From Alphaproteobacteria bacterium casp-alpha6 (lineage in GTDB: Bacteria > Pseudomonadota > Alphaproteobacteria > Rhodobacterales > Rhodobacteraceae), in NCBI GenBank assembly GCA_001510135.1, contig LFER01000009.1, forward strand, positions 37,806 through 101,805: a stretch of DNA of 64,000 nt, written 5' to 3'. The translations under genes were made by a program, and so were the position numbers. Each line of letters starts with the position of its first letter. The first letter of the stretch is position 1. A model generated the notes under the pieces. That model did not search any database. It had not been told where the DNA came from and was given only the letters and a program-made list of their open reading frames with translations. Of the stretch, positions 45,085-46,166 are shown piece after piece.

Positions 45085-45531
45085 TTAATGGCAGCTTTTG
45101 CCAAGCGCTTTGAGACGCCAGTAATTATAGGGCAGCGGGGTCAAAAAGCCTGCCAAAAGCATGATAGGTACCACCCACCACGTCAGCATGGCCCCGCCGG
45201 TCAACAACACGTCCACAACATTCATCGCGGCTTCCATTGAAACCATTGAAATAATGGACATTCCGATCGCCGTATTGAAAGCGAGCTTTAGACTCATTTG
45301 ACGCGACAGAATAAACGTCTCAAGCGCAATAGAGGTCAACAAACCATTTATGATAGCAAGGGTCATTATTGCCAAAGTCGGCCAAGGAATGCCGGTAAAC
45401 TGAAAGAACGCAATCGTTCCAAAATCGCCGATAGAGCACCCAAGCAAACACCACATCGTGTTTTTTGACGCCCTGCGCCACGTATGACGACATTTCCAGT
45501 TGATTGATAAGTTTTGGGCCAGAGCAGTCAT
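45085..45531 (-). CDS. DUF4396 membrane protein, probably copper-responsive
   Basis: About 148 residues with four hydrophobic segments and a Cys/His-containing N-terminus ('NWKCRHTWRRASKNTMWCLL'). 'GCSIGDFGTIAFFQF' and 'WWVVPIMLLAGFLTPLPYNY' are typical of the DUF4396 family. The start is ATG at 45531 (a GTG at 45540 is possible). It reads from the MerR-type promoter shared with cueR, so copper should induce it. The conserved Met, Cys and His residues fit a copper-handling role, but this is inference from regulation. Confidence 0.8.
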   Translation of the reverse strand: MTALAQNLSINWKCRHTWRRASKNTMWCLLGCSIGDFGTIAFFQFTGIPWPTLAIMTLAIINGLLTSIALETFILSRQMSLKLAFNTAIGMSIISMVSMEAAMNVVDVLLTGGAMLTWWVVPIMLLAGFLTPLPYNYWRLKALGKSCH

Positions 45532-45562
45532 GTCATGCACCTTGTTTGTAAATCACAACGCC

Positions 45563-45593
45563 CATATAGTCCTTCCAGTAACTGGAAGGTCAA
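45563..45593 (-). promoter_or_regulatory. CueR-type operator and promoter of the DUF4396 gene
   Basis: On the minus strand TTGACC and TATATG are spaced by exactly 19 bases, the overlong spacer of MerR-activated promoters. Within it lies a palindrome, CCTTCCAG-TAA-CTGGAAGG (45571-45589), matching the CueR operator form. It is 32 bases from the DUF4396 ATG and covers the cueR promoter region on the other strand. Confidence 0.85.
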
Positions 45594-45603
45594 GGGTGAA
45601 TTC

Positions 45604-45993
45604 ATGAAAATCTCTGACGCCGCTTTAAAAGTTGGTCTGCCTGTAAAAACTATCCGATATTATTCCGATATCGGCCTTGTGACTCCCACAGGGCGCAGTG
45701 CCGCAGGATACCGCGATTACGACCACTCTGCGCTGAAAAAGCTGGTCTTTATCCGACGCGCAAGGGAGTTTGGATTTTCGATCGACGAATGCCGCGATCT
45801 TTTGGACCTGTATGAAGATCAAAATCGTTCAAGCGCTGATGTGAAACATCTGGCAAGCTTACGCTTGCGCGACATCGAACAAAAACAAAAAGAGCTGCAG
45901 CTTTTGCACGATGAACTGTCCCATCTTGTCCAAAGCTGCAAAGGCGACGGCCGTCCAGACTGCCCAATTCTGTCAAACTTTGCGCAGGTTTGA
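45604..45993 (+). CDS. cueR: Copper-sensing MerR-family regulator CueR
   Basis: A 129-residue activator that senses Cu(I). The MerR helix-turn-helix ('ISDAALKVGLPVKTIRYYSD') is followed by a dimer coiled coil and the metal loop 'CKGDGRPDC' with Cys112 and Cys120, the same positions as in E. coli CueR. The track ORF begins at 45514, but the protein starts at ATG 45604. It is divergent from DUF4396 and overlaps no copA-like gene; no copper ATPase is in the window. Confidence 0.92.
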   Translation: MKISDAALKVGLPVKTIRYYSDIGLVTPTGRSAAGYRDYDHSALKKLVFIRRAREFGFSIDECRDLLDLYEDQNRSSADVKHLASLRLRDIEQKQKELQLLHDELSHLVQSCKGDGRPDCPILSNFAQV

Positions 45994-46082: not shown

Positions 46083-46166
46083 GGGCGACAGGCCGCAAGG
46101 TGTGGCAGGGGACTGTAACTCCCTCGCGGAGACGCACGCTTGGTTCGATTCCAAGGTCGCCCACCA
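46083..46166 (+). tRNA. tRNA-Tyr (GTA), class II with long variable arm
   Basis: Acceptor stem GGGCGAC/GTCGCCC, discriminator A and encoded CCA; anticodon arm GGGGA-CTGTAAC-TCCCT with anticodon GTA; variable arm of about 12 bases; T arm CTTGG-TTCGATT-CCAAG. The D arm is odd: position 8 is A instead of the near-universal U, and the base expected to be A14 is C, so the usual 8-14 pair is lost. It may be a clade-specific form of tRNA-Tyr or a diverged copy. The tRNA is alone, with no other tRNA nearby. Confidence 0.85.

Follow-up and report, generated by a model that had tools for sequence, protein, structure and literature searches.

A CueR-type promoter directed at a short DUF4396 membrane protein, a candidate substitute for the copper ATPase CopA in marine bacteria

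Our analysis of a 64,000-nucleotide stretch of the genome of Alphaproteobacteria bacterium casp-alpha6 (hereafter, the window) revealed a divergent gene pair in which a CueR-type promoter is directed at a gene encoding a short membrane protein of the DUF4396 family. The arrangement recurs in related loci, and short-type DUF4396 genes tend to occur in genomes with no detectable copper P1B-ATPase. Judged from sequence, the protein very probably has a role in copper handling, as an earlier note on this DNA had proposed; that proposal is supported by the association with CueR, copper-related neighbours, fusions to multicopper oxidases, CsoR-like regulators and the absence of CopA. We see about as much for as against the more specific reading, in which CueR controls DUF4396 as a protein of Cu(I) detoxification, most likely a small exporter that is not an ATPase and takes the place of CopA. 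Somewhat more tentatively, the short-type proteins may be small Cu(I) exporters of a new, non-ATPase family, which in many marine and related bacteria would have taken over from CopA as the target of CueR.

Genes and promoter of the window locus

The features discussed here are listed in Table 1. The window DUF4396 protein matched the PF14342 profile with 128.6 bits (gathering cut-off 27) over profile positions 1-141 of 141. The product has 148-151 aa, with translation starting either at the listed GTG (45540) or at the ATG at 45531 (148 aa); the latter is the likelier start because of a Shine-Dalgarno-like AAGG. The divergent regulator scored 150.1 bits against TIGR02044 (curated cut-off 147.4) and contains the Cu(I) loop CKGDGRPDC (C-X7-C) as well as the motif SSADVK, the serine of which we take to occupy the position of S77 in E. 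coli CueR.

Table 1. Coordinates of the features at the window locus and at related loci
Feature	Sequence	Coordinates	Strand	Remarks
-35 element TTGACC	window	45593-45588	minus	identical element in identical place in 53/93 related loci
Spacer between TTGACC and TATATG	window		minus	TTCCAGTTACTGGAAGGAC, 19 nt
CueR operator (predicted)	window	45570..45590	minus	ACCTTCCAGTTACTGGAAGGA, inside the 19-nt spacer
-10 element TATATG	window	45568-45563	minus	
Whole CueR-type promoter	window	45563-45593	minus	direction DUF4396
DUF4396 four-helix membrane protein gene	window	45085..45540	minus	PF14342 profile match
cueR, Cu(I)-responsive MerR-family regulator	window	45604..45993	plus	divergent from DUF4396; TIGR02044
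tRNA-Tyr (GTA)	window	46083-46166	plus	directly 3' of cueR; only tRNA of the window
CsoR-like gene	L119	617-889		beside DUF4396
CsoR-like gene	L123	1119-1412		beside DUF4396
CsoR-like gene	L122			beside DUF4396
CsoR-like gene	L074			beside DUF4396
Multicopper oxidase-DUF4396 fusion	L107	214-1914		long-type DUF4396
Multicopper oxidase-DUF4396 fusion	L115	1501-3123		long-type DUF4396
Viral short-type DUF4396 gene	L154	3998-4420		
Two small genes upstream of DUF4396	L075	4206-4463, 4488-4769		

The operator, an inverted repeat ACCTTCC-N7-GGAAGGA, differs by one mismatch from the perfect ACCTTCC-N7-GGAAGGT and lies inside the 19-nt spacer of a -35/-10 pair, as in CueR-type promoters; transcription is predicted to start about 7 nt downstream of TATATG, towards DUF4396. 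In shuffles of the window the number of operator matches with up to three mismatches expected by chance was 0, and an operator-pattern search of the 2.98-Mb genome returned this site as the only one with one mismatch at most. A chance palindrome was rejected on the grounds of these shuffles, the genome-wide uniqueness and the recurrence in related loci. A box serving cueR alone was also rejected, as the -35/-10 pair points at DUF4396 and this orientation is kept in relatives. The earlier description of a palindrome with an exact 19-base spacer pointing at DUF4396 thus held in every detail. The same note had stated that the promoter is not aimed at CopA, and this was confirmed, because no copper P1B-ATPase gene was found at E 0.001 or better in the window's genome (86% complete) by a search that gave a match in 14 of 14 control genomes.

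Association with CueR in related loci

Eighty close relatives of the window DUF4396 (72-87% identity) were collected from bacterial genomes and further ones by whole-genome searches; the survey set comprised 93 distinct loci with sufficient upstream sequence. The exact 19-nt-spacer promoter with CueR arms, aimed at DUF4396, was found in 53 of them, the same promoter test being positive in 2 of 4650 shuffled regions and, elsewhere in the same loci, in 6 of 4546 segments (0.13%). Spacers were 19 nt long in 57 loci and 21 nt long in 21, each of the other lengths (15-18, 20, 22 and 23 nt) occurring in no more than eight. A CueR homolog was adjacent and divergent in 58 of the 93 loci, with the loop pattern C-X-G-[DN]-X4-C (C-X7-C) in nearly all cases; ten loci had the box and no adjacent CueR, and eight of those genomes encode a strong CueR match elsewhere. 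The earlier note had suggested surveying DUF4396 genes for adjacent CueR boxes, and had regarded a lack of genomic association with CueR sites as evidence against its proposal; the survey turned out positive and the association strong.

In four loci (L074, L119, L122 and L123) a CsoR-like regulator (Trns_repr_metal) adjoins DUF4396 instead of CueR. The best NCBIfam match of these regulators is the copper repressor RicR, with scores below the RicR cut-off. Since regulators of both the CueR type and the CsoR-like type stand beside DUF4396, two unrelated types of metal sensor are attached to one gene. In L119, the CsoR-like gene beside DUF4396 is accompanied by genes for a cupredoxin and cytochrome c.

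The DUF4396 protein

Residues are numbered here from the GTG at 45540. In 80 short-type sequences (mostly about 65-85% identity), C31, C35, D39, M59, E74, M94, M99, M102, E103, M106, N107, D110, M127 and C150 are invariant, and C17, H19 and H151 nearly so. The motif containing C31 is retained in the long DUF4396 forms, as is P-x-N, and most of the short-type methionines are absent from them. The AlphaFold model (pLDDT 82.7, pTM 0.71) contains four membrane-length helices, and the invariant acids D39, E74, E103 and D110 fall in predicted helices. The ten lysines and arginines are confined to an N-terminal segment (preceding residue 27), a middle loop (80-85) and a C-terminal segment (beyond 141); this distribution fits a topology with both termini in the cytoplasm. 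A Foldseek comparison of the fold with the PDB gave a best E-value of 0.5 and no hit at 0.001 or lower, and the sequence had no match in the PDB. For DUF4396 we thus found neither an ATPase or transporter fold of a known kind nor a relative in the PDB that would directly support transport. The conserved candidate ligands are the basis on which the protein may be an exporter of Cu(I), a reading to which we give about equal weight for and against.

Neighbouring genes and fusions

Genes found at a distance of up to 4 kb from the 93 DUF4396 genes encode CopD (25 loci), CopC (24), cytochrome c (36), multicopper oxidase (22) and cupredoxin (6). Fifteen loci had no copper-related neighbour, some of them being short contigs or having flanks of 1.5 kb only. 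In two loci a complete multicopper oxidase is fused to a distant, long-type DUF4396; the fusions have a linker rich in Met and His and an additional predicted helix. This long subfamily has no BLAST similarity to the window protein; with such fusions in distant members, the copper-related character of the DUF4396 family extends beyond the CueR-linked branch. Six SAR116-like loci, exemplified by L075, share two small genes upstream of DUF4396; one of the two has a weak match, below the cut-off, to the nickel-responsive SCO4226 family.

The main alternative to export, which we regard as unlikely and yet the most serious of the competing readings, is that CueR induces DUF4396 as a buffer or membrane chaperone for Cu(I), which binds the ion in or at the membrane and hands it over to periplasmic proteins (multicopper oxidase, CopC or cupredoxin) or to oxidase assembly, with no uphill pumping. 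In its favour, the proteins encoded next to DUF4396 or fused to it are periplasmic copper proteins, DUF4396 carries many Cys and Met ligands for its small size, and CopA is retained in some genomes. However, most carrier genomes have no other copper P1B-ATPase to clear the cytoplasm (see below), and the invariant buried acids hint at ion translocation. It is improbable that DUF4396 is instead a redox partner which, together with a cytochrome c or multicopper oxidase encoded nearby, takes part in the oxidation of Cu(I) to Cu(II) at the membrane: a cytochrome c gene is often located directly downstream, and multicopper oxidase is both a neighbour and a fusion partner, but in at least 14 further loci, as in the window, CueR and DUF4396 stand alone, and the protein has no recognizable heme or quinone motif.

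Distribution relative to copper P1B-ATPases

To our knowledge, CopA-type P1B-ATPases are regarded as the near-universal route of cytoplasmic Cu(I) removal. In a sample of 159 genomes from the order, a copper P1B-ATPase was found in 156 and any DUF4396 match in 11. Two genomes of this sample that are 99-100% complete (G010 and G060) have neither, which suggests another, unexplained copper solution.

Among 50 genomes with a short-type DUF4396, 34 had no copper P1B-ATPase. In six of the remaining 16, including the isolate Amylibacter marinus, the sole P1B match adjoins FixG, FixH, FixS or FixO, which are cbb3-oxidase assembly or subunit genes, and was therefore taken for a CcoI-type assembly ATPase and not for CopA. 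Both DUF4396 and CopA are present in some genomes, e.g., those of Sneathiella and Maricaulis. The class sample comprised 387 Alphaproteobacteria genomes, the window's own included and the others selected for at least 90% completeness, with small oceanic genomes over-represented; P1B matches were absent from 32 of the 39 carriers of short-type DUF4396 (hand-counted from tables that list part of the genomes without a match, "short" being called by profile coverage and frame length) vs. 94 of the 348 other genomes, an odds ratio of 12 (Fisher P about 2e-11, the genomes in the test being related to one another). Genomes with long DUF4396 mostly retain P1B.

Loss of CopA accompanies small oceanic genomes, so the anti-association may partly reflect lifestyle. 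An explanation that goes further, and that we also consider improbable, is that streamlining of ocean-bacterial genomes accounts for the anti-association entirely, with DUF4396 as a minor accessory in copper tolerance. Many carriers do have genomes of 1.2-2.5 Mb, among them four complete ones of 1.2-1.4 Mb with short-type DUF4396 and no P1B (G232, G290, G381 and G456), and SAR11 is reported to have "completely eschewed" copA, which is present in 98% of Roseobacter genomes (PMC4771312). Against this, carriers with genomes of 2.8-4.5 Mb have no P1B either, and in eight families (f1, f24, f27, f69, f86, f88, f102 and f107) P1B is absent from the carriers, and DUF4396 from those relatives that are listed with a P1B match; further relatives outside the listing may have neither.

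Occurrence in bacteria, phages and the literature

Carriers of short-type DUF4396 are mostly bacteria from marine sources. A phylum-wide sample of 398 genomes gave only six with the short type, four of them strong matches; the type is therefore widespread and not common in cultured-type genomes. Spread by plasmids was not indicated, as a plasmid search gave only two distant DUF4396 proteins from Streptomyces.

Twelve viral contigs from IMG/VR (L154-L165) encode short-type DUF4396. The gene is located among those for a clamp loader, thymidylate synthase and PhoH in L154, next to tail tube genes in L156 and next to a DNA ligase gene in L163. Ten aligned viral copies, in which nearly all candidate ligands are conserved, all retain C31, C35, M94, M99, M102, E103, M106 and the C-terminal Cys-His, and none of the ten is preceded by a CueR box. 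The INPHARED phage collection yielded no match. Marine-type phage DUF4396 is likely an auxiliary copper gene, as the retained residues and the phage gene neighbourhoods suggest.

In the literature searched, a single paper mentions DUF4396, as a gene at the edge of an Acidihalobacter metal-resistance cluster (PMC7760498). Our literature search found no mention of PF14342 or IPR025509, no experimental work on DUF4396, and no description of it as a replacement of CopA.

Comparison with known systems

Like the E. coli-type CueR-copA regulon, the window locus combines a MerR-family Cu(I) sensor, a 19-nt-spacer promoter and an ACCTTCC-N7-GGAAGGT-type operator with a divergent regulator-target pair in a detoxification context. 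Unlike in that regulon, the target is not a P1B-ATPase but a four-helix protein of 148-151 aa without an ATPase domain, and CopA, CopZ and CueO are absent from the window locus. Novel here are the effector and the possibility that it has displaced CopA; the circuit itself has been described before.

The window protein is a clear member of PF14342, with which it shares the HC/WC-x2-GC/D-x2-G and P-x-N motifs; the CueR-linked short subfamily adds invariant Met and Cys residues and the C-terminal Cys-His, whereas the long subfamilies have extra helices or, in two cases, a multicopper oxidase domain. The CopC/CopD and multicopper oxidase genes of the pco/cop type often belong to the short-DUF4396 gene cluster; they have no sequence relationship to DUF4396 and are absent from the window locus. 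A further comparison is with EmrE and other SMR transporters, which are small four-helix inner-membrane proteins with buried acids. DUF4396 resembles them in size and plan only, since no homology was detected and DUF4396 has Cys/Met ligands and another conservation pattern.

Proposed mechanism

We propose that the locus acts as a two-gene copper-detoxification switch, with CueR occupying the 19-nt-spacer promoter. A rise in cytoplasmic Cu(I) would make CueR realign the promoter and thereby turn on the short-type DUF4396 gene, the product of which, a four-helix inner-membrane protein, would clear Cu(I) from the cytoplasm. Cu(I) binding, its transport and the outward direction are inferred: most likely, the ion would be taken up by the cytoplasmic ligands C17/H19 and C150-H151, pass to C31/C35 and then along the Met-rich third helix (M94, M99, M102 and M106), and leave into the periplasm. 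The buried acids D39, E74, E103 and D110 could couple this transport to protons, and the protein probably works as an oligomer. In richer loci, CopC/CopD, multicopper oxidase or cupredoxin may then deal with the copper in the periplasm. In these organisms, the role of CueR target would have passed from the CopA ATPase to DUF4396. It is very improbable that the protein imports copper or handles another metal, CueR control reflecting silver, gold or repression: the C-terminal Cys-His resembles what we take to be the cytosolic HCH of eukaryotic CTR1, and CueR is known to answer Ag(I) and Au(I) too, but a CueR 19-nt-spacer promoter is activated by excess Cu(I), which is at odds with import, and the neighbours are copper-resistance genes.

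Implications

Export by DUF4396, if true, could answer the question of how ocean bacteria without CopA shed cytoplasmic copper. The gene is carried by phages too, and its presence in marine phages suggests a role of copper handling in infection. For the family, the analysis adds a probable copper function to a small membrane protein whose modelled fold is unmatched among solved structures. DUF4396 offers a concrete candidate substitute for CopA, with about 150 residues, predicted control by a canonical copper sensor and invariant candidate copper ligands. As it occurs where the copper pump is missing, it may represent an unrecognized way of coping with copper.
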